From contig CAIWKE010000036.1 in NCBI GenBank assembly GCA_903913215.1, forward strand, positions 62,001 through 126,000: a stretch of 64,000 bases of DNA, given 5' to 3'. The notes beneath the pieces are model-generated. The model was not told where the DNA came from. It worked only from the letters and a program-made list of their open reading frames with translations, and made no database searches. The stretch is from an uncultured Holophagaceae bacterium (GTDB lineage Bacteria; Acidobacteriota; Holophagae; Holophagales; Holophagaceae). Positions 4,017 through 59,950 of this stretch are shown in pieces; positions within the stretch are counted from its first letter, which is position 1; each line of letters opens with the position of its first letter. The translations under genes and the position numbers were made by a program.

Positions 4017-4835
4017 TTATTCCTTGATCACGGGGCCCGACTTTCCTTCGGCCGCGCGGTAGCCCCCCGGGAAGTGCTCGTGGGCGCAGGTGGGGCACAT
4101 GCCATGGGTGAAGGAGAGGTCCGTGCGCTCGGAGAGATACTGCTCCACCTGGGTCCAGAGGCCCTCGTCATCCCGCACCTTTTTGCACCAGCTGCAGATG
4201 GGCAGCAGGCCCTGAAGGGTGCGGATCTCGTCCAGGCTGCGTTTCAGTTCCTGGTTCAGGGCCGCCTGTTGCTTGCGCTCAGCATCATAGCTGGTGAGCA
4301 CCACCAGCAGGATCAGGATGCCGGCCACGACGCTCAACAGGAAGCCCGAGACCAGGTCCCAATAGCGGTCTGAGGGGCTCTTGAAGGCGATAGACCAGCC
4401 TGGATGCAGGTGATCCAGGCTCAGCAGCAGCAGGATGTTGAGGGTGAAGGCTGTGAGCATGGCCCAGCGGAGGCGCCGCCGGAAGAAGATGGCGATGATC
4501 ATGACGCCGGTGTAGAAGAACATGCCGATGCTGCCCTGGGACCCGCCATCTGTGAACCAGGAGAGGTTCAGCACCACCGCCACGGCCAGGGCGAAGGTCT
4601 TCTTGTGGGGATGTCCCGCCACCGAGCGCTGGTACAGGGCCCAGCTGCCAAGGCCGAAGGCGAAGATGATGAGGTTGAAGACCGGCGGCAGGTCCTGGAG
4701 GTAATTGATGGGAATGACCAGGAAGAGGCTCAGCACCGCAGCCGCCAGACTCAGGTGCTGGAAGAGGCGGTCCTCCATGGGCAGGCCTTGGGCCGCAGCA
4801 AACCTGGCCTTGAGCACCTGCAGGGGACGGATCAA
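4017..4835 (-). CDS. Integral membrane protein with C-terminal LPICSWCKK-type cysteine domain
   Basis: Protein of 272 aa. About six hydrophobic segments (residues 25-190) are followed by a short coiled region (AERKQQAALNQELKRSLDEI). The cytosolic tail LQGLLPICSWCKKVRDDEG...FTHGMCPTCAHEH resembles a tail seen on many bacterial PAS, GGDEF and response-regulator proteins. Its four cysteines (CSWC, CPTC) look metal-binding. No kinase, cyclase or phosphodiesterase domain is attached, so output must come from a partner. The start is TTG at 4835 with AGGAG 7 nt upstream; ATG at the MEDRLF position is an alternative. It follows the GCS2-M20 gene on the same strand. The specific function is unknown. 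Confidence 0.6.
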   Translation of the reverse strand: MIRPLQVLKARFAAAQGLPMEDRLFQHLSLAAAVLSLFLVIPINYLQDLPPVFNLIIFAFGLGSWALYQRSVAGHPHKKTFALAVAVVLNLSWFTDGGSQGSIGMFFYTGVMIIAIFFRRRLRWAMLTAFTLNILLLLSLDHLHPGWSIAFKSPSDRYWDLVSGFLLSVVAGILILLVVLTSYDAERKQQAALNQELKRSLDEIRTLQGLLPICSWCKKVRDDEGLWTQVEQYLSERTDLSFTHGMCPTCAHEHFPGGYRAAEGKSGPVIKE

Positions 4836-4891: not shown

Positions 4892-7702
4892 CTAGGCCTT
4901 GAAAAGTTCTGCGGCAAAAGCGTCCAGGGCCCGGTAGTAGGGGTCGATGCTGGGGATGTAGTGACGCTCCCCGGCGGCGTGGGGGCCGATGCCGGTCTGG
5001 CCCCAGACCACACCCTGGCCCCCGGGGGCGAAGCGGGCCGAGGTGCCCGCGCCCTTGCGACCGATGCGCACGTCACCGCCCGCAGCGCTGATGCCCGCCA
5101 GCAGGGCCTTGAGGTGGGGATTCTCGGGATCGCAGGCGATGCCTGGCTCCCAGGCGGAGGGCAGGAATTCCAGCTGCAGCTCCGCGGCCATGGCTTCGAT
5201 GTCCGCACGCATCTTGGACACATCGTCCTGGGGGATGGGGCGGATCTCCACGCCCAGAGAGCCACGATCCGGGGTGATGTTGTAGATGCCCGGGGTGCCG
5301 ACCTGGATGTAGGCGAAGCGGGCCAGGGACTGCCAGCCCTCGGCGGACTTGAGGGTGAGGTGCCGGGCGAAGAGTTCCCGCAGGGACTCCCGCGCACTGA
5401 GCAGGCGCTCCGTGAGGTCCGCACCGCCCGCTAGGCCACTGTGGCCCCGGGTTCCATGGGCCACCAGCTCGAAGCGCAGCACTCCGCGGTTCTGGGTGCA
5501 GACCTCGCCCCAGAGCTCGGTGCCCTTCTCACCCGTGCGCTCGCCAGCCGCGAAGAAGGCGGGCTCGTAGCCGGACTCCTCCTTGAGAAGCTGAAGCACG
5601 TGGGGCGTGCCCATGGCCTCCAGCTCACCGTTCTCCTCGTTGCCCACCAGCAGCAGGTTCACGGGAGGGTAGGGCGCGCCCTGCTTGAGGCGGTCCTTCA
5701 TCCACACCAGGTAGGTGGAGACCACGGTCTTCATGTCCGCGGCGCCGCGACCCCAGAGGTAGTCACCCTCGATGCGGGGCTCGAACTGGCTATCGTCGGG
5801 CTCGGGCTCCACCACGTCGAAGTGACCGCAGAGCATGACCGGGGCCTGCTCGCCGCCAGGGAAGTGAGCCAGGATGGCAGGGAAGGGACCTGTGTCGAAG
5901 GTACGGACCGGGACGCCGTGGTTTCGCAGGTAGTCGTAAATGAAAGTGGCGGCGCGGTGGACTTCCGGCAGGCGCTCCTCGGGGCAGGCGGTGACGCTGG
6001 GGATCTTCACCAGGCGCTGGGAGAGGGCCAGCACCTCGCTGGTCTTGTCTGCGTAGGCCGTGTCCACGAAGGTCTCGGGCCGGGGCCGGAAGCGGATGGG
6101 GGCTTCGGAGTCGAGGTGCACTTCTTCCCGGGCATGCTGAACGAAGTCCTGGATCTTGCCTTCCTCCTGGCCCAGGTCCGACAGGTGGGCGGTGATGCCC
6201 TCTACCTCAGTGCGAACCTGCTGCTTGCGGGCCTCGGCCAGCTCCACCAGGAGGTCGGGAGGCACGATGTCCGAAGTGCCCAGCTTCTCCTTGAGGCGCA
6301 GGCGGATGCGCTCGGCCGTGCTCGGGGCACCGGCGGCCATGTCCCGCAGGGGCTGGAGGTCGTCCCAGAGGCCCAGGCCTTCGGCCAGGGGGCGCATCTC
6401 CTTGAGGGTCCACTCCAGGAAGGCACGCATGGCGATGGGCTTGGCCGTGAGGGGATTGTCGATGGTTCCGCGCAGGCCCTCTTTGGCGGCCGTATCTTCG
6501 TTGCGCCGGGCCCGCGTGATGTCCTCCGCGTCGTAGCGGAAACCCCGGGCGAAGTCAGGATCCGCGTAGAAGCGGAGGAGGAGGAGGTGCTTAAGCGTGA
6601 GATTGGCGACGTCCAGGGGCAGGTCATGGCAGGGATCGTCCGTGCGGACTTCCACGCGGGCCATGGGCAGGTCGATGCGAGCGAAGAGGTTCTGGCGCTC
6701 GATCTGGGCGGCCATGTCCTCCACGTTGCGGGTCTCGCCAGCGGCGAAGAGGCCGCGGGCGTAGATGTCGTGGAGCTGGTCACTCGTGACCTGGATGAGG
6801 CGCTCCACCGGCTCCGCCTGGGAGCGGGCGCGGACGGGGATCCAGTTGTTGTTGCCGAAGCGCACACCACTGCGCACCAGGTCGTAGGAGAGACGCAGGT
6901 AGTCCGCGTGGCTGCGGTTGAGGTCCGGCACGTCGAGCACCGGCGGGTTCGGGAAGGTGAGGTTGCGCACGGACTCATAGGGCGTGAGCCGCACCACGGG
7001 TTTCCCGTCCTCCTCGGAGGCCTGGAGCGGCGTGCTGGCGCTGGTGGCGATGAAGAGGGCCGCAAAGGCCCGCATGAGCCGGGTGCCCGTGATGTAGACC
7101 TGGTTCTTGTAGTCGTCCAGGTGCGTGTCACCGCGCTCGGCGGCGGGCAGGTGCATGAAGTCCCAGGCGAGCATGGGCTCAGGCAGACTCAAGTTGGAGT
7201 GGGTGCCCGCCGTGGCCAGCTCGGTGCCGTACATGTCCACGCAGCGCTGGAGGTAGCGGCGCTTGGCCAGGTGCCAGGACTCGGGCACGCAGTCCGGGCC
7301 GATCTTGGGCAGCACGAGGAGGTTGCCGTGCCAGTAGTGGAGCGGTTCGCCGAAGCTCTTGCCGACCTTGGCCAGGGCGTTGATGAGGGCCGCCTCCAGC
7401 AGGCGCCCCTCGTACACGGCGCCCTTGGGCGTGTGGTAGGGCCGCGTCACCCACTCGATCATCCAGTGGAAGACCTCCAGCTGGTGGTATTCCTCAGTCC
7501 AAGGCGAGAGCACCTTGGCCCGCAGGTGGTCCACGAAGGACATGCGATCCGGCCCCGTGCCCACCGTTAGCAGGGGGCGGAACTGGGGATCCACCAGGTT
7601 CCACTCCAGCTCCAGCCCGCAGAGGCCGCCCGAAGGCCGGGTCTCCAGCGCCGTCTGTCGCGCCAGCTGGAACTTCTCGACGAAGGCATTCAAATCGAAC
7701 AC
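4892..7702 (-). CDS. Fusion of GCS2-like glutamate-cysteine ligase and M20 metallopeptidase
   Basis: Protein of 936 aa with two enzyme halves. Residues 1 to about 480 are a GCS2/glutamine-synthetase-fold ligase: CGLELEWN, GTHSNLSL, NNNWIPVRAR and RVEVRTDDPCHDLPLD. A charged helical linker follows (about 480-545). Residues about 545-936 are an M20/DapE-like dipeptidase with GHFDVVEPEP, WGRGAADMK, GNEENGE, AAGERTGEKG and a late GPHAAGERHYIPS supplying the usual metal ligands and catalytic acids. GTG at 7702 is chosen because AGGAG lies 6 nt upstream; the in-frame extension beyond it runs into an intergenic repeat. One half may form and the other hydrolyse a gamma-glutamyl or similar amide bond. 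The substrate is unknown. A single long frame makes a sequencing fusion unlikely. Confidence 0.75.
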   Translation of the reverse strand: MFDLNAFVEKFQLARQTALETRPSGGLCGLELEWNLVDPQFRPLLTVGTGPDRMSFVDHLRAKVLSPWTEEYHQLEVFHWMIEWVTRPYHTPKGAVYEGRLLEAALINALAKVGKSFGEPLHYWHGNLLVLPKIGPDCVPESWHLAKRRYLQRCVDMYGTELATAGTHSNLSLPEPMLAWDFMHLPAAERGDTHLDDYKNQVYITGTRLMRAFAALFIATSASTPLQASEEDGKPVVRLTPYESVRNLTFPNPPVLDVPDLNRSHADYLRLSYDLVRSGVRFGNNNWIPVRARSQAEPVERLIQVTSDQLHDIYARGLFAAGETRNVEDMAAQIERQNLFARIDLPMARVEVRTDDPCHDLPLDVANLTLKHLLLLRFYADPDFARGFRYDAEDITRARRNEDTAAKEGLRGTIDNPLTAKPIAMRAFLEWTLKEMRPLAEGLGLWDDLQPLRDMAAGAPSTAERIRLRLKEKLGTSDIVPPDLLVELAEARKQQVRTEVEGITAHLSDLGQEEGKIQDFVQHAREEVHLDSEAPIRFRPRPETFVDTAYADKTSEVLALSQRLVKIPSVTACPEERLPEVHRAATFIYDYLRNHGVPVRTFDTGPFPAILAHFPGGEQAPVMLCGHFDVVEPEPDDSQFEPRIEGDYLWGRGAADMKTVVSTYLVWMKDRLKQGAPYPPVNLLLVGNEENGELEAMGTPHVLQLLKEESGYEPAFFAAGERTGEKGTELWGEVCTQNRGVLRFELVAHGTRGHSGLAGGADLTERLLSARESLRELFARHLTLKSAEGWQSLARFAYIQVGTPGIYNITPDRGSLGVEIRPIPQDDVSKMRADIEAMAAELQLEFLPSAWEPGIACDPENPHLKALLAGISAAGGDVRIGRKGAGTSARFAPGGQGVVWGQTGIGPHAAGERHYIPSIDPYYRALDAFAAELFKA

Positions 7703-7738
7703 GGGTACTCCTGGGACATTCAGAAAGGACAACTGATA

Positions 7739-7818
7739 ACCACCAAGGCGCCAAGACACCAAGAACTTATGACACCGATCTACTGCTTTTATTGGTGCCC
7801 TAGTGTCTTGGTGGTGGT
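7739..7818. repeat. Intergenic hairpin repeat (caccaagac unit type)
   Basis: accaccaaggcgccaagac and further units on the left pair with ttggtgccctagtgtcttgg on the right across about 30 nt. It lies between two co-directional minus-strand genes, just downstream of the aminotransferase stop. Confidence 0.65.
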
Positions 7819-7829
7819 CATTCCTGCTC

Positions 7830-9140
7830 TTATTTTTTCAGGGAGTTCAGCGCCTCGATGAGCCGCTCGGCGGCACCCTGGGTGCGGGCCTGGGGGGTGG
7901 CGTAGGAGAAGCGGAGCCACTCACCGCCATAGGGGCTGAAGAAGGCGCCGGGCACGATGGCCACGCCGTGGTTCTCGGCCAGGTATTGGCCCATGGGTTC
8001 GGTGTCGGCCCAGCCTTTGGCTGCGAGCGTGTCGGCCACCTTGATGAAGGCGTAGTAGCCCTGCCCGATGATGTGGGTGAGGCCCTGCTCCTTGAGGTAG
8101 CCCCGCAGCCAGGCGCGGCTGGCGCGGCAGGGCTCGATGATGGGCGCGGCTGCCACGGCTAGGCCCTTCTCGTAGGCGGCCATGGCCACGGCCAGGCTGA
8201 AGAAGGAGGGGATCACCGTGTGGGAGGCCTGGGCCACGATGGTTTTCACCACCTCGGCATCGGCCAGAAGGTGGCAGTTGCGGATATTGGAACCGCCCAG
8301 GCTCTTGGTGATTCCGTCGAGGACCATGATGCGCTTGCGCAGTTCGGGCTCGAAGGCGCGCAGCAGCACGTTGACGTCATGGGGCTCGCCGTCGCCCACG
8401 GCGTGGTACATCCAGTCGAAGAGGACGTAGGCCATTCCGGATTCCAGGGCGACCCGGGCCAGGGCGATCTGGCGCTCCAGCGTGAGGGTCTGGCCCGTGG
8501 GGTTGTCAGGGCTGGTGATGACCAGGCCCGCCACTTTGCGGCCGGTCTTGGCAGCCTCGGTGACGCAGGCGCGCAGGCCCTCTTCCGTGTAGGCCCAGCC
8601 TTCTTCCGCGCGGCCCGGAGCCCACATGACGTTGGCGCCGATGCCGTAGGGCCCCCAGTTGTAGCTGATCCAAGGCACGCGGCTGACCACCACCACGTCC
8701 CCCTGGCGGCCATGGCCCAGGGCCAGCATGGCCTGATAGGCCTTCACCAGACCGTCGCGGCCACCCTGGGTGCCGATGACATTGGCCGGGCCCCAGCCCG
8801 TGTCCGGAGCCAGCTTCCAGTAGGACTCCGCCACGATCTTGCGGTAGGCATCGGTGCCGAAGGGCATGTCGTAGGCGGTGCCGTGCTGCTTCTGCAACTC
8901 GAAGGCGCGGTCCAGCAGGGCTTCGGGCACGCCGGGCAGGGAGGCGCCACCGTCGCCCTGGCTGGCGTCGAAGATGGGCACGCCCGGCTGCTGCTCCTGG
9001 AAGACCTTCAGGGATTTGTTGATCAGGAACATGCGCGAGGCCGGAATGGCCATCATCTTCCCCAGGTGATCGCTCACCGGGACGAGGTTCCCTTCGGGCA
9101 CTGCGTAGGCCGGGGTCTCAGGGGAAAGTAGGGCGGACAT
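7830..9140 (-). CDS. PLP-dependent class I/II aminotransferase
   Basis: Fold-type I aminotransferase, 436 aa. Visible are the NPTG substrate-binding loop in ITSPDNPTGQTL, the VLFDWMYHAVG segment that orients PLP, and the Schiff-base lysine in GITKSLGGSNIRN. The start is ATG at 9140, preceded by GGGAGG at good spacing; the longer frame adds 18 unsupported residues. A promoter (9201-9228) and a 5' hairpin (9161-9189) precede it. It lies downstream of proBA on the same strand but appears to have its own promoter. Family members act on aspartate, aromatic or branched substrates, and I cannot choose between them. Confidence 0.8.
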   Translation of the reverse strand: MSALLSPETPAYAVPEGNLVPVSDHLGKMMAIPASRMFLINKSLKVFQEQQPGVPIFDASQGDGGASLPGVPEALLDRAFELQKQHGTAYDMPFGTDAYRKIVAESYWKLAPDTGWGPANVIGTQGGRDGLVKAYQAMLALGHGRQGDVVVVSRVPWISYNWGPYGIGANVMWAPGRAEEGWAYTEEGLRACVTEAAKTGRKVAGLVITSPDNPTGQTLTLERQIALARVALESGMAYVLFDWMYHAVGDGEPHDVNVLLRAFEPELRKRIMVLDGITKSLGGSNIRNCHLLADAEVVKTIVAQASHTVIPSFFSLAVAMAAYEKGLAVAAAPIIEPCRASRAWLRGYLKEQGLTHIIGQGYYAFIKVADTLAAKGWADTEPMGQYLAENHGVAIVPGAFFSPYGGEWLRFSYATPQARTQGAAERLIEALNSLKK

Positions 9141-9189: not shown

Positions 9190-9200
9190 AGCACCCACTA

Positions 9201-9260: not shown

Positions 9261-10562
9261 TTATGAATTACCGGCCAGATCCCGGTGGGTGAAGGGGCGG
9301 GCGGCGGGGCCGCTGTAGTCCTCCACCCGCTGGCCCGTGCCTCGCAGCAGGTAGCGGTGGCTGAGGAGGCCCTCTAGGCCCACGGGGCCCCGGGCGTGGA
9401 TGCGGCCCGTGCTGATGCCCACCTCGGCCCCGAAGCCGTAGCGGAAGCCGTCGGCGAAGCGGGTGGAGGCGTTGTGGAAGACCCCGGCGGCATCCACCTC
9501 CGCCAGGAAACGGGCGGCGGCGGCGGGGTCCTCCGTGACGATGGCCTCGGTGTGGCCGCTGCCGTGGGCGGCGATGTGGGCCAGAGCTGCGTCGAGGTCC
9601 TCCACGATCTTGAGGGCGAGGATGGGCTCGCCGTACTCCGTGTCCCAGTCCGCCTCGGTGGCAGTGCCTAGCCCTGGTGCCAGAGCCCGGCAACGCTCGC
9701 AGCCCCGCAGCTCGACGCCCCGGCCCGCCAGGTCGGCGGCCAGGGCCGGCAGCAGGCGCGGAGCGGCGGCGGCATGGACCAGCACGGTCTCAGCGGCGTT
9801 GCAGGCGGAGGGGTACTGCAGCTTGGCGTCCCGCACCAGGGCCAGGGCCATGGCGGTGTCCGCGGCTGCATCCAGGTACACGTGGCAGATGCCTTCGGCG
9901 TGGCCCAGAACGGGGATGCGGGTGGAGGCCTGGATGTACTGGACCAGGGCATTGGAACCCCGGGGGATGATGAGGTCCACCAGATCCGACAGGCCCAGCA
10001 GGGCCTCCACGGACTCCCGGTCCTCCAGTCCCTGCACGGCGGCCTCGGGCTGGCCGCAGGCGCGCAGAGCTTCCTGCACGACCGCAAGCAGGGCGGCGTT
10101 GGAATGCCGGGCCTCGCGGCCCCCCTTGAGCAGGACGGCGTTGCCGCTCTTGAGGGCCAGGGCGCTGATCTGGATGAGGGCGTCCGGCCGCGACTCGAAG
10201 ACCACACCCAGCACGCCCAGGGGGCAGCTCACGCGGCTCAGCTCCAGGCCCGCGTCCAGCTCCCGGTGCAGCTGCACGACGTTGAGTGGGTCTGGCAAGG
10301 CGGCCACGGCCCCCACGCCGGCAGCCATGTCCCGCAGTTTGGCGGCATCCAGCTTCAGGCGCTGGAAGGCCGAGGGGCTGATGCTGCCTTGGCTCTCGGT
10401 CAGATCCTTGGCATTGGCCTCAATGATCACCGCCTCGTCCCGAAGTAGGTTCGTGGCCAGGGTCTCCAACAGGTGGTTGCGGGTGGCGCTGGGCGTGGTG
10501 GCCAGGCGGCGTGTGGCCGCGCGGGCGGCCACGGCCTGGGCCCGGACGGGCTGGGCACTCAT
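9261..10562 (-). CDS. proA: Glutamate-5-semialdehyde dehydrogenase (gamma-glutamyl phosphate reductase)
   Basis: Second enzyme of proline synthesis: NADPH-dependent reduction of gamma-glutamyl phosphate to glutamate-5-semialdehyde. The 433 aa length is normal for ProA. The aldehyde-dehydrogenase-like fold shows PLGVLGVVFESRPDAL, ALKSGNAVLLKGGREA, DLIIPRGSNALV and the catalytic cysteine in YPSACNAAETVLVH. The ATG at 10562 overlaps the proB stop by 4 nt, so the two form a coupled operon. The order proB-proA is usual. A 9 nt direct repeat CTTATGAAT lies at and after its stop codon. Confidence 0.95.
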   Translation of the reverse strand: MSAQPVRAQAVAARAATRRLATTPSATRNHLLETLATNLLRDEAVIIEANAKDLTESQGSISPSAFQRLKLDAAKLRDMAAGVGAVAALPDPLNVVQLHRELDAGLELSRVSCPLGVLGVVFESRPDALIQISALALKSGNAVLLKGGREARHSNAALLAVVQEALRACGQPEAAVQGLEDRESVEALLGLSDLVDLIIPRGSNALVQYIQASTRIPVLGHAEGICHVYLDAAADTAMALALVRDAKLQYPSACNAAETVLVHAAAAPRLLPALAADLAGRGVELRGCERCRALAPGLGTATEADWDTEYGEPILALKIVEDLDAALAHIAAHGSGHTEAIVTEDPAAAARFLAEVDAAGVFHNASTRFADGFRYGFGAEVGISTGRIHARGPVGLEGLLSHRYLLRGTGQRVEDYSGPAARPFTHRDLAGNS

Positions 10563-11431
10563 GGCTGGCCTGAGGCGCTGGGCGCGAAAAAGGTGCCCAG
10601 GGGCTCACCCTCGAGGATGCGCTCCAGGATGCGGGGGACGAGGCCCGAGGCCAGCACCACGGGCACGCCCTGGGCGGCGGCCAGGCGGGCGGCCTCCAGC
10701 TTGCTGGCCATGCCGCCGCGACCGCGGTCGCTGGTGCCTTCCACCTCCACGGGCGGGCAGGCGTTGAAGGGAACGTCCGTGACAGGGGTCGCCTCGGGAT
10801 ACAGATCCGGGTTCTGCGTGTGCAGCGCCGACACATCCGAAAGCAGCACCAGCAGGTCCGCGTCCAGGTGCATGGCCACCAGAGCCGAAAGATGGTCGTT
10901 GTCGCTGAAGATCGGGGTGCGGTCGGCGGCAGGGCGCTCCAGCTCCAGGGTGGAGACCGTGTCGTTCTCGTTCAGCACGGGGATGGCGTCCAGGCTGAGC
11001 AGGGTCTCCAGGGTGCGGCCCAGGTTGGCGTGGCGCACGGGGTCCGCGAAGTCGTCTTCCGTGAGCAGCACCTGGGCGGCGCAGAGGCCCATGCGGGCGA
11101 AGCCCTCCTGGTAGATGGACATGAGCTGGCCCTGGCCCGCAGCCGCGCAGGCCTGCTTCTGGGAGAGCCCCGAAGGCTGGATGCCCAGCTGCCGGGCGCC
11201 CAGGCCCACGGCCCCGGACGATACCAGCACCGGCTGGGCCCCGCGGCGGCGCAGGACCGCCACGGCCTCCATGAGCCCGTAGAGGCGGCTGAGGGCCGGG
11301 CGGCCCTCCGCGTCCAGTACCACCTGCGTGCCGAACTTCACCACGATGCGGCGGGCTGCGCCCAGCTCAGCGCGGTTGCGGATGTGGGCGCGGGTGAGGC
11401 CGAGCATGTCGGGTAGGGGCTGCGTGTCCAT
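10559..11431 (-). CDS. proB: Glutamate 5-kinase
   Basis: First enzyme of proline synthesis: phosphorylates glutamate using ATP. The amino-acid-kinase fold shows RIVVKFGTQVV, VLVSSGAVGLGARQLG, LNENDTVS, FSDNDHLSALVA and GRGGMASKLEAARLA. ATG at 11431 is chosen because AAAGG lies 6 nt upstream and because a terminator hairpin sits directly before that site. At 290 aa it ends after the kinase domain and lacks the C-terminal PUA domain of E. coli-type ProB. PUA-less versions are known in the family. Feedback inhibition by proline is expected but not visible. Expression appears controlled by leader attenuation. Confidence 0.93.
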   Translation of the reverse strand: MDTQPLPDMLGLTRAHIRNRAELGAARRIVVKFGTQVVLDAEGRPALSRLYGLMEAVAVLRRRGAQPVLVSSGAVGLGARQLGIQPSGLSQKQACAAAGQGQLMSIYQEGFARMGLCAAQVLLTEDDFADPVRHANLGRTLETLLSLDAIPVLNENDTVSTLELERPAADRTPIFSDNDHLSALVAMHLDADLLVLLSDVSALHTQNPDLYPEATPVTDVPFNACPPVEVEGTSDRGRGGMASKLEAARLAAAQGVPVVLASGLVPRILERILEGEPLGTFFAPSASGQP

Positions 11432-11443
11432 GGGTGCCTTTAA

Positions 11444-11473
11444 ACAAAAACCCCCGAGCTCGAGGGTCGGGGG
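11444..11473 (-). terminator. Attenuator-type intrinsic terminator directly upstream of proB
   Basis: On the minus strand CCCCCGA pairs with TCGGGGG around a 9 nt loop, followed by TTTTTGTTT. The proB RBS (AAAGG) begins within a few nucleotides of the T-run and the ATG is at 11431, so no promoter can fit between. Any proB transcript must therefore read through it. Upstream GGT-(GGA)-CGGGG can pair with CCCCGACC of the 5' arm, a possible antiterminator. Confidence 0.75.
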
Positions 11474-11499
11474 CGGGAGTGCGGGAGCCTGTTGTCGAT

Positions 11500-11571
11500 C
11501 TAGATCCCCGTCCACCTCACCACCGGAGTGGCATGGTTAGGGCGAGGGTTGGTGATTTTGGTGAACAACAT
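11500..11571 (-). CDS. Candidate proline-containing leader peptide of proBA
   Basis: A 23-codon frame, ATG at 11571 to TAG at 11500, encodes a peptide with the core NPRPNHATPVVRW. It has three proline codons: CCT, CCT, CCG. The predicted promoter would start transcription within about 3 nt of the ATG, so it could be translated leaderless; no Shine-Dalgarno sequence is visible. The G-rich end of the frame contains the proposed antiterminator strand. A second overlapping frame starting at 11580 also contains proline codons, so which one is used, if either, is uncertain. Confidence 0.4.
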   Translation of the reverse strand: MLFTKITNPRPNHATPVVRWTGI

Positions 11572-11612: not shown

Positions 11613-11642
11613 AAAAAATGACCCAGTGGTCGACTGGAGTCA
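11613..11642 (-). terminator. Intrinsic terminator of the decarboxylase gene
   Basis: TGAC-(T)-CCAGT pairs with ACTGG-GTCA around CGACC, 9 bp with one bulge, followed by TTTTTT. The stem begins at the decarboxylase stop codon itself. Confidence 0.75.
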
Positions 11643-13055
11643 GCAGGCTTCGGCTGCAGCCCGCAGAAACTCCCACAGCGCCTCCACATGCCGTCGCTCC
11701 GTGGTCTCGGCGCCGATGCTCACGCGGAGCATCTGGGTGCCCTTGAGGACCGAGGGCGTGAGGTAGGCCTTGCCACCCTCATTGATCCGGCGGGCGAGGT
11801 CGAGGTTGTGGGCGGCGGTGGCGGCTTCGTCCAGACCGGGCTTGATATGGCGGATACACACGGTCTGGAGGGGCACCGGGGCCAGGCGCTCCCAGTCTGG
11901 GTCAGCGTCGATCTGGTCCTTGAACCACTGGGCGTGGTCCAGGTCTCGGCGCAGGCGGGCCTGGAGGCCTTCCACACCCACGTCCATGAGGTAGAACCAG
12001 AGCTTCAGGGCCCGGAAGCGGCGGCCCAGCTGGATGTGCCAGTCCCGGAAGTTGCTGACCTGGCCGTCCTGGGCCGTGCGCAGGTAGCTGGGGTTGGTGC
12101 TCATGACGCGGATGAGGTGCTGGGGATCCCGCACATAGTAGGCGCTGAGGTCGAAGCCCACACCCATCCACTTGTGGGGGTTGAAGACCAGGCTGTCGGC
12201 CCGCTCCACGCCCGCCCACATCCAGCGGCACTCGGGCAGCACCATGGCCGTGCCCGCCAGGGCCGCGTCCACGTGGAGCCACATCCCGTACTGCTCGGCG
12301 AGGTCTGCCATGGCCGCGATGGGATCCAGGGCCGTGGTGCCCGTGGTGCCCACGGCGGCGACCAGGGCGCAGGGGCGCAGGCCGATCTCGATGTCCTTCT
12401 CGATGGCCGCCTGCAGCAGGTCCAGGCGCAGGGCGTGGTTTTCGTCGGTGGGGATGAGGCGCAGGAATCTGCGGCCGAAGCCCGCCAGCAGGGCGGCCTT
12501 CTCGATGGAACTGTGGCCCTGGTCTGTGGCGTAGACCACCATCGGCGACTCACCGCCCTGGAGGCCTTCCTCGTTCTGGCAGTAGCCCGAAACCTTCTCC
12601 CGGGCGCAGAGCAGCGCCGTGAAGGTGGCGGTGCTGGCGGTGTCGTGGATGACCCCCGTGAAGGCGGGGCTGAGACCCACCATCTGGCGAAGCCAGTCCA
12701 TGACCACTTCCTCCACCTCCGTGGCGGCGGGGCTGGTCTGCCAGCTCATGCCCTGGGCGCCGATGCCCGAAGCGGCAAGGTCGCCCAAGATTGAGCTGTA
12801 ACTGGTGTTACTTGGGAAGTAGGCGAAAAAGGATGGATGGTTCCAGTGGGTGATGCCTGGCATCACGTCCCGATCCAGGGCCGCCAGGGCCTGGTCCATG
12901 CGCCCCCCCTGCTGGGGTGGGTGCGCCGGGAAGGCCGCTCGGATCTCGCCGGGCTGGGCCTGGCTCATGACCGGCAGGCGCTCCAGACCCTCGCGGTAGT
13001 CTGCGATCCAGTCCACGAGCTGATATCCAAGGCGGCGGAATTCTTGTGCGTCCAT
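11640..13055 (-). CDS. Group II PLP-dependent aromatic-L-amino-acid decarboxylase
   Basis: Protein of 471 aa, the length of the DDC/TDC family. The PLP-binding lysine is in FNPHKWMGVGFD. GVIHDTASTATFTALLCARE and HVDAALAGTAMVLPE are the substrate and cofactor segments, and VSNFRDWHIQLGRRFRALKLWF is strongly conserved in eukaryotic and bacterial aromatic decarboxylases. It would convert tyrosine, tryptophan, phenylalanine or DOPA to the amine and CO2. It is a single gene with its own terminator overlapping the stop codon. The substrate is undecided. Confidence 0.87.
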   Translation of the reverse strand: MDAQEFRRLGYQLVDWIADYREGLERLPVMSQAQPGEIRAAFPAHPPQQGGRMDQALAALDRDVMPGITHWNHPSFFAYFPSNTSYSSILGDLAASGIGAQGMSWQTSPAATEVEEVVMDWLRQMVGLSPAFTGVIHDTASTATFTALLCAREKVSGYCQNEEGLQGGESPMVVYATDQGHSSIEKAALLAGFGRRFLRLIPTDENHALRLDLLQAAIEKDIEIGLRPCALVAAVGTTGTTALDPIAAMADLAEQYGMWLHVDAALAGTAMVLPECRWMWAGVERADSLVFNPHKWMGVGFDLSAYYVRDPQHLIRVMSTNPSYLRTAQDGQVSNFRDWHIQLGRRFRALKLWFYLMDVGVEGLQARLRRDLDHAQWFKDQIDADPDWERLAPVPLQTVCIRHIKPGLDEAATAAHNLDLARRINEGGKAYLTPSVLKGTQMLRVSIGAETTERRHVEALWEFLRAAAEAC

Positions 13056-58570: not shown

Positions 58571-59950
58571 CTACTGAAACCGAACGTCCGACTGCGCCAG
58601 CGCATAGGCGAAGCTGGCGAGGGCCGCCGAACTGAAGGCCAGATCCTCCTTGACCACCTTGTCGAAGGTGTCCGCCTGGGTGTGGTGGATGTCGAAGTAG
58701 TGGGTGCCCGCATGCTCTACGCCGATGCCCGGCACGCCCTCGGCCACCATGGGGCTCACGTCCGCCCCTGAGTGCCCCAGCTGGAACGTGACCTTGAAGC
58801 AAGCCAATCCCTCGCCGAGCTTTTTCATCGAGGCCAAAGCGTCAGCTTTGGCCTGGGGTGAGGCCTTGCGGAGTTCCAGCTGGAAACTCTTGATGGGCTC
58901 GCTGCCGGAGTCCGTTTCCAGGGCCGCAATGATGTTCTTGAACTCAGCGCGATGGGCGTCGCGGTAGGCCTTGCCACCGCGCAGGCCGTTCTCCTCGTTG
59001 GTCCAGAGCACCACGCGGATGGTGCGGCGGGGCTTCAAGCCCAGGCTCTGGATGAGGCGCGCGGCCTCCATGGCGACGACGGTGCCCGTGCCATCATCCT
59101 GGGCGCCCTGGCCCACATCCCAGCTGTCCAGGTGCCCGCTGAGGAGGACCACTTCCTCGGGCTTTTCGGTGCCGCGGATCTCGGCCACCACGTTGGCGGA
59201 AGGGGCGTCAGGTAGCGTCTGCGCACCCATCTCCAGGCGCAGCTGGATGCGCTCACCGCGCTCCTGCATGCGCCGCATCTGCGTGGAGGCTTCGAGGGTC
59301 ACGCTGGCGGTGGGGATCTTCGGAAAGCCAGGATCGTAGTCCATGGCGCCGGTGTGGGGGGTGTCCAGGCTCACGGGGCCCACGGAGCGCACCAGAGCAG
59401 CCACGGCGCCGAACTTCGCGGCGCGGGCGGCGCCGTCATGGCGGTAGACCACCGTGTGGCCATAGCCGGCGTAGGGCACGTCGAAGAGGACGATCTTCCC
59501 CTTCAGGGCCGGCCCGAGCTTCTCTAGTTCGTCGAAGGAGCCCACCACCACCACATCCGCTGTGAGGCCCCCCTTGGGCGTGCCCACGCTGCCACCCAGG
59601 CCCAGGATGTTCACGCGATGGTGCGTCGGCAGCAGCAGTTCCGCGGCTTCGTATCCCCGCACCCAGTGCGGCACCATGGCAGCCTCCGTGTGCACGTTCA
59701 CAAGGCCTGCGGCCTTGAGCCGCCCCTGGGCCCACTCAATGGCTTGGTCCAGCTGAGGCGAGCCTGACAGCCGGTGGCCGATTCGGTCGCAGAGCCAGGC
59801 CAGGTCCGCATAGGCGCCGTTGGTGCGCGAGGCCTCCGTGCGCAGTCGCTCGGCCGTGCTGGTGAGGGCCTCGGGAGCGGTTTGGGCCACCAGGTGGGAA
59901 CCGAGGCTCGAAGCCAGGAGCAGGGAGAGGAGGCAGTGGGATGAGGTCAT
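58571..59950 (-). CDS. Exported M28-family aminopeptidase with PA domain
   Basis: A 459 aa protein. A signal peptide (LLSLLLASSLGSHLVAQ) precedes a PA-like insert (about 120-230) and an M28 two-zinc domain: His/Asp in LSGHLDSWDVGQGAQDDGTG, Glu-Glu in WTNEENGLRGG, Asp in LETDSGSEP and His in YFDIHHTQADTFDKV. It removes N-terminal amino acids or dipeptides from peptides outside the cytoplasm, complementing the S46 enzymes. The 58381-58570 gap before it shows no gene. Confidence 0.9.
   Translation of the reverse strand: MTSSHCLLSLLLASSLGSHLVAQTAPEALTSTAERLRTEASRTNGAYADLAWLCDRIGHRLSGSPQLDQAIEWAQGRLKAAGLVNVHTEAAMVPHWVRGYEAAELLLPTHHRVNILGLGGSVGTPKGGLTADVVVVGSFDELEKLGPALKGKIVLFDVPYAGYGHTVVYRHDGAARAAKFGAVAALVRSVGPVSLDTPHTGAMDYDPGFPKIPTASVTLEASTQMRRMQERGERIQLRLEMGAQTLPDAPSANVVAEIRGTEKPEEVVLLSGHLDSWDVGQGAQDDGTGTVVAMEAARLIQSLGLKPRRTIRVVLWTNEENGLRGGKAYRDAHRAEFKNIIAALETDSGSEPIKSFQLELRKASPQAKADALASMKKLGEGLACFKVTFQLGHSGADVSPMVAEGVPGIGVEHAGTHYFDIHHTQADTFDKVVKEDLAFSSAALASFAYALAQSDVRFQ

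Follow-up and report, generated by a model that had tools for sequence, protein, structure and literature searches.

LysX is an ATP-grasp enzyme, LysJ and ArgD are class III aminotransferases, and the M20 enzymes include dipeptidases that cleave gamma-glutamyl and beta-alanyl bonds. The M20 deacylases of the diaminopimelate, arginine, and LysW routes are homologous, and LysX links to the gamma-carboxyl group of glutamate (PMC10433800). LysX-LysJ-LysK and DapD-DapC-DapE each combine three reaction classes, namely attachment of an acyl group or formation of an amide, transamination, and hydrolysis by an M20 enzyme (PMC10433800). The superfamily that holds the PafA/Pup ligase and several orphan carboxylate-amine ligases forms amides by way of a carboxyl phosphate. 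Its members carry a GhExE motif in core strand 1, acidic residues in strands 2 and 3, [HD]x[NH] in strand 4, Ex[RK]x2D in core strand 6, and two active-site arginines (PMC2588565). One orphan family of this superfamily is encoded beside amide-cleaving enzymes; these are thiol peptidases or gamma-glutamyl cyclotransferases with genes of their own, and an aminotransferase is not mentioned (PMC2588565). The locus described here belongs, by its ligase, to the same superfamily and, as far as its genes tell, matches LysX-LysJ-LysK and DapD-DapC-DapE in all three reaction classes. In contrast to these systems, it employs a GS/GCS-fold ligase and a class I aminotransferase, and its ligase is fused to the M20 hydrolase in place of the separate partners of the orphan ligases. 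Unlike in the LysX-LysJ-LysK pathway, no kinase or reductase genes of the LysZ/LysY kind are kept beside the unit.

The locus lies in a stretch of 64,000 nucleotides (the window) from a Geothrix-group bacterium of soil and sediment. Its central gene encodes an N-terminal carboxylate-amine ligase followed by a C-terminal M20 metallohydrolase (Table 1). The long open reading frame covers positions 4892-7762 of the minus strand and runs for 956 residues from a TTG at 7762. Residue 21 corresponds to a GTG at 7702, which would yield a protein of about 936 amino acids; this start, adopted in the preliminary description, is borne out by the relatives, which begin at the equivalent position, and by one frame (L056) with a stop codon immediately 5′ of it. 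Residue numbers below are those of the 956-residue frame. An AlphaFold model of the fusion has a mean pLDDT of 81.6, with the lowest values at about residues 286-325 of the model. The same fusion is found in about 30 genomes of the same genus, at 83-90 % identity; the fusions of Chloroflexota share about 58-69 % and those of other Acidobacteriota about 50 %. The arrangement is therefore a product neither of chance nor of mis-assembly. Among 60 relatives, the full fusion extends throughout the genus. A search of the open-licence literature returned neither a report of the ligase-plus-M20 architecture nor a characterized homologue, in agreement with the preliminary description, which recognized no described enzyme with this order. 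Searches of plasmids with the fusion gave weak M20 matches only, and an Rfam search of the window gave no match.

Table 1. Features of the ligase-M20 locus, in window coordinates
Feature	Position	Strand	Evidence
Ligase + M20 fusion gene	4892..7702	minus	Open reading frame, starts of relatives, Pfam/NCBIfam, AlphaFold model, PDB matches
Ligase domain (residues ~21-528 of the 956-residue frame)	6178..7702	minus	Conserved motifs, YbdK-type fold, hhalign
M20 hydrolase domain (residues 573-956, ~384)	4895..6046	minus	Pfam, residue alignment, fold
Fold-type I PLP aminotransferase (class I), upstream gene of the two-gene unit	7830..9140	minus	Pfam, neighbourhood, co-occurrence, fold

The ligase domain, about 510 residues long, is too divergent to be named by single-sequence models. 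A Pfam search with the N-terminal half alone finds no match, GCS2 (PF04107, curated cut-off 21 bits) being absent even at an E-value of 10, and a PF04107 search of the whole genome finds none either. Among 35 diverse relatives aligned for this half, 7 weakly touch PF04107 (best E 1e-4), 33 touch a cyanobacterial GshA model, and all 35 touch a YbdK-type carboxylate-amine ligase model (best E 8e-8). YbdK is also the top, albeit weak, match in a profile search of PDB sequences (E 0.012), and hhalign aligns the N-terminal half with a GCS2/YbdK profile built for this study at a probability of 96.9 (E 1.7e-10). The predicted fold superposes on 1tt4 (Z 28.8) and 1r8g (Z 27.8), in both cases with an rmsd of about 3 over about 340 residues. 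The complete motif set of the superfamily is recognizable. GhExE reads G49-L-E51-L-E53 (GLELE), with the glycine and both glutamates invariant in the 35 sequences; E96 and E103 are equally invariant and represent the acidic residues of strands 2 and 3, an assignment made by motif rather than by superposed coordinates. [HD]x[NH] reads H188-S-N190, its histidine and asparagine being invariant, and hhalign pairs it with GVHYNFSLP of Escherichia coli GshA. Ex[RK]x2D reads E371-V-R373-T-D375-D376; E371, R373, and D375 are invariant, and D376 is aspartate in 21 sequences and glutamate in 14. R311, R313, and R362 are invariant as well and are equated with the two active-site arginines by motif order. 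At one position where E. coli YbdK and GshA have a glutamate, an alignment by eye places His99. The common fold, the GhExE/acidic/HxN/ExR motif set, and a similar C-terminal region tie the domain to YbdK and GCS2 proteins; it nevertheless differs from these by being well over 100 residues longer, by a structural identity of 17-18 %, by its fusion to M20, and by falling below the Pfam cut-off and remaining unmatched in the search of its own genome. The N-terminal half is thus a member of the ligase superfamily and constitutes a new, unnamed family beside GCS2. The preliminary description of a GCS2 ligase fused to an M20 dipeptidase was right about the single polypeptide and the ligase-then-M20 order, while the GCS2 label does not stand by Pfam's rule. 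Like YbdK/GCS2 ligases, the domain may transfer gamma-glutamyl groups to an amino acid at the expense of ATP.

The C-terminal half matches PF01546 (58.1 bits against a cut-off of 24.6). Its metal ligands (H647, D676, E710, E741, and H928), the catalytic E709, and D649 are present, and the lid and dimer residues H774, N828, and R841 are kept. They correspond to residues of E. coli DapE and ArgE, and in an alignment of 86 relatives with these two enzymes every residue assigned to a column is invariant; the EE pair is shifted by one column there, the motif NEENGE holding both glutamates. The intact active-site motifs reported earlier for both halves are accordingly upheld across 35 (ligase) and 86 (M20) aligned relatives. 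The best structural match of the predicted fold is 2rb7, a structural-genomics entry (Z 36.5, rmsd 3.3, 350 residues), and the nearest named families are DapE-type N-acyl-amino-acid deacylases. With the DapE/ArgE/LysK branch (2rb7, 5vo3, 8uw6, 5xoy), the domain shares the fold (Z 31-36), all metal ligands, the catalytic glutamate, and the lid His/Asn/Arg; it differs in its position behind a ligase and in its low identity (18-27 %), and none of the named DapE, ArgE, or LysK equivalog models is reached at cut-off, the best being PRK13009 with 86 against 284 bits. A second, separate M20-family match lies in the window at 58610-59113 (minus strand), within a 460-aa frame.

Directly upstream of the fusion lies the gene for a fold-type I aminotransferase, a partner that the preliminary description overlooked. 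It starts with an ATG at 9140, within a longer frame that reaches a GTG at 9194. The protein matches PF00155 (E 1e-24, 87.7 bits against a cut-off of 19.7), its model shows the standard aminotransferase fold (Z 37.8 with 1o4s), and the PLP lysine (K279 in alignment numbering) is invariant within DGITKSLG. A GntC-like function, suggested by the top NCBIfam match, was dropped since an ordinary DapC-like gene matches the same model more strongly. The aminotransferase adjoins the fusion co-directionally in nearly all loci long enough to judge. Of 70 loci with a measured gap, 58 have fewer than 320 bp between the two genes, which are often less than 30 bp apart or overlap. In one genome (G267), aminotransferase, ligase, and M20 form a single frame of 1390 aa, a triple fusion likewise missed before. 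Some Anaerolineales carry unrelated genes between aminotransferase and fusion (L070/L075 at 7180-7983, L095, L101); no conserved gene occurs in these long gaps, the inserts being common to close relatives only and otherwise unrelated.

A scan of a genome collection, keyed on exact short peptides that distant members would escape, returned 80 loci, which belong to Holophagaceae, to Anaerolineales-type Chloroflexota, and in one case to a record labelled Aminicenantes. All loci with complete ends hold a single fusion frame except one Chloroflexota contig (L100:7995-10831), where the ligase and M20 parts occupy two overlapping frames; a frameshift or assembly error is the likely cause, although the split is possibly natural. 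Two phyla were sampled in depth and evenly, and the aminotransferase was searched for independently of the ligase. Among 297 Acidobacteriota genomes, the ligase occurs in 31 and the aminotransferase in those 31 plus one more (G326), 32 in all; among 301 Chloroflexota genomes, the ligase occurs in 9 and the aminotransferase in those 9 plus two more (G406 and G574), 11 in all. A stand-alone ligase domain was not seen in these 297 and 301 genomes, all frames being of fusion length apart from fragments in broken assemblies. The trio of aminotransferase, ligase, and M20 is conserved across two phyla. Because ligase and aminotransferase co-occur and are joined in the triple fusion, the fusion and its upstream neighbour point to one small-molecule pathway. 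Three genomes are exceptions; their assemblies may be incomplete, but the direct neighbours were read in each. In G326 the aminotransferase is closely followed by a free-standing M20 (57 % identity) and the ligase is missing, whereas G406 and G574 possess the aminotransferase without ligase and without this M20. In an M20 tree whose root is unreliable owing to very long outgroup branches, the G326 protein groups with the fused Acidobacteriota proteins (100/100). The ligase was therefore probably lost secondarily in this genome, subject to the uncertain root. The persistence of M20 and aminotransferase without the ligase also argues that the hydrolase is not a simple trimmer of the ligase product in every lineage.

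No third gene is conserved beside the two-gene unit across the loci, and the unit therefore looks self-contained. In the window, proA and proB (9261-11515, minus strand) lie directly upstream of the aminotransferase; proBA is found near the unit in many Geothrix-like loci and not in Chloroflexota, while tatD and a polyprenyl synthase gene occur near it in some Chloroflexota only. Further upstream, a PLP-dependent decarboxylase gene (11640-13055, minus strand) has diaminobutyrate decarboxylase as its nearest model, far below cut-off, and frequently accompanies the unit in Geothrix. Immediately downstream of the fusion (4017-4835, minus strand), a predicted membrane protein ends in a short WCKKVRDDEGLW...CPTCAHEHF segment; since it is limited to some Geothrix loci (L045, L048, L052, L076), it is not counted as part of the unit.

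Tentatively, and by analogy with the known pathways, the single most likely reading is that the unit protects, transaminates, and deprotects its substrate. First, the ligase would use ATP to activate a carboxylate and would join the activated acid to an amino group of the substrate; judged by the best known relatives of the ligase, the donor is most likely glutamate with its gamma-carboxylate. In a second step, the aminotransferase would convert a keto or aldehyde group of the protected intermediate by transamination. Hydrolysis of the amide by the M20 domain would then yield the finished amino compound and the protecting acid. The latter would diffuse freely, with protector and deprotector residing in one chain. 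We infer the glutamate donor, the cooperation between the active sites, and the order of the steps, the last by analogy only. The co-occurrence of ligase and aminotransferase in both phyla (31/297 and 9/301 genomes), the close and co-directional arrangement culminating in the 1390-aa frame, and the kinship of the M20 domain to DapE-type deacylases—the deprotection class of the diaminopimelate, arginine, and LysW pathways—are consistent with this scheme. However, the genomes G326, G406, and G574 weaken the case for an obligatory cycle, which should keep its protector unless another acylating enzyme substitutes for it. Furthermore, a ligase and a hydrolase acting on one bond would waste ATP unless the hydrolase refuses the untransaminated intermediate. 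The fuller proposal is doubtful but conceivable: an undescribed pathway whose temporary amino-protecting group is a small free acid, probably glutamate bound via its gamma-carboxyl group, with one polypeptide supplying both the GCS-fold ligase that attaches the group and the M20 hydrolase that removes it, and with the aminotransferase at times belonging to this polypeptide as well.

Two alternatives are serious rivals to the protection scheme. Possibly, though this is on the unlikely side, the product of the ligase is a dipeptide or amide of the gamma-glutamyl or a similar type, to be edited or recycled by the M20 domain, and the aminotransferase merely supplies or removes the amino-acid partner; the preliminary description had offered the making and trimming of a gamma-glutamyl compound as an example. 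Two intact active sites, a ligase of YbdK/GCS2 fold, the fusion of ligase and M20 in almost every lineage, and the existence of M20 enzymes acting on gamma-glutamyl and beta-alanyl dipeptides would all suit such a cycle; by itself, it leaves unexplained the near-perfect pairing with the aminotransferase, the triple fusion, and the survival of M20 and aminotransferase without the ligase in G326. A role in breakdown or salvage appears rather unlikely. Here, the M20 domain would act on an acylated or peptidic precursor to release an amino acid for oxidation by the aminotransferase, and the ligase would be an accessory for conjugating or storing the product. Genomes with aminotransferase and M20 only, or with the aminotransferase only, make the aminotransferase the most persistent part and speak for this view, but the well-supported position of the G326 M20 among the fused Acidobacteriota forms makes the loss of the ligase look secondary, with the reservation about the root given above.

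That one half is catalytically dead and acts as a scaffold or regulator of the other is improbable. The divergence of the ligase domain, single members of which escape Pfam, and His99 at a glutamate position of YbdK and GshA (alignment by eye) could be taken in its favour; against it, none of the 35 ligase sequences varies in its GhExE, acidic, HxN, and ExR residues and none of the 86 M20 sequences in its metal ligands, across two phyla.

The known lysine and arginine routes were considered as targets. A place in the diaminopimelate route of Geothrix was rejected in view of a separate cluster with dapA, dapB, dapD, a dapC-like gene, an M20 gene, a lysA-like gene, and lysC/asd; in the genome of the window (G000, contig C20) it reads M20, asd, lysC, dapB (243 aa, below the cut-off of its model), dapA, dapD, aminotransferase, lysA-like (L135:6459-14834). 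The arginine route was likewise rejected, argD, argF′, argB, an argE-like M20 gene, and argG occurring together in the same genome (L198:3348-10250, contig C34); this cluster contains an N-acetylornithine rather than an ornithine carbamoyltransferase, marking a route through acetylated citrulline. ArgJ is absent from the fusion genomes tested, but also from the fusion-less G143 and G160. Since the genome encodes the standard enzymes at other sites, diaminopimelate and arginine synthesis are unlikely targets, and the substrate is unlikely to be diaminopimelate or ornithine. A missing step supplied by the fusion to a variant of either route is highly improbable: the enzyme classes match DapD/C/E and ArgA/D/E, one unit (L063) lies near genes for aspartokinase, aspartate-semialdehyde dehydrogenase, and a LysE-like exporter, and proBA is upstream in many Geothrix, but neither proBA nor lysine genes are kept beside the unit in most lineages, strong DapL-like genes are present in the genomes of L063, L071, and L105, and the standard dap and arg sets of the host leave no gap to fill.

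The fusion marks a new family of ligases. Family models applied to single sequences miss the ligase half, and the protein is therefore likely annotated in databases as an M20 peptidase only. Through the pairing with the aminotransferase and the triple fusion, the locus offers a three-enzyme pathway open to direct testing in bacteria that are poorly understood, the Geothrix relatives and Anaerolineae. If the substrate is indeed protected and deprotected as proposed, the unit would represent a further kind of temporary protection in amino-acid metabolism, next to protection by acyl groups and by the LysW carrier protein.
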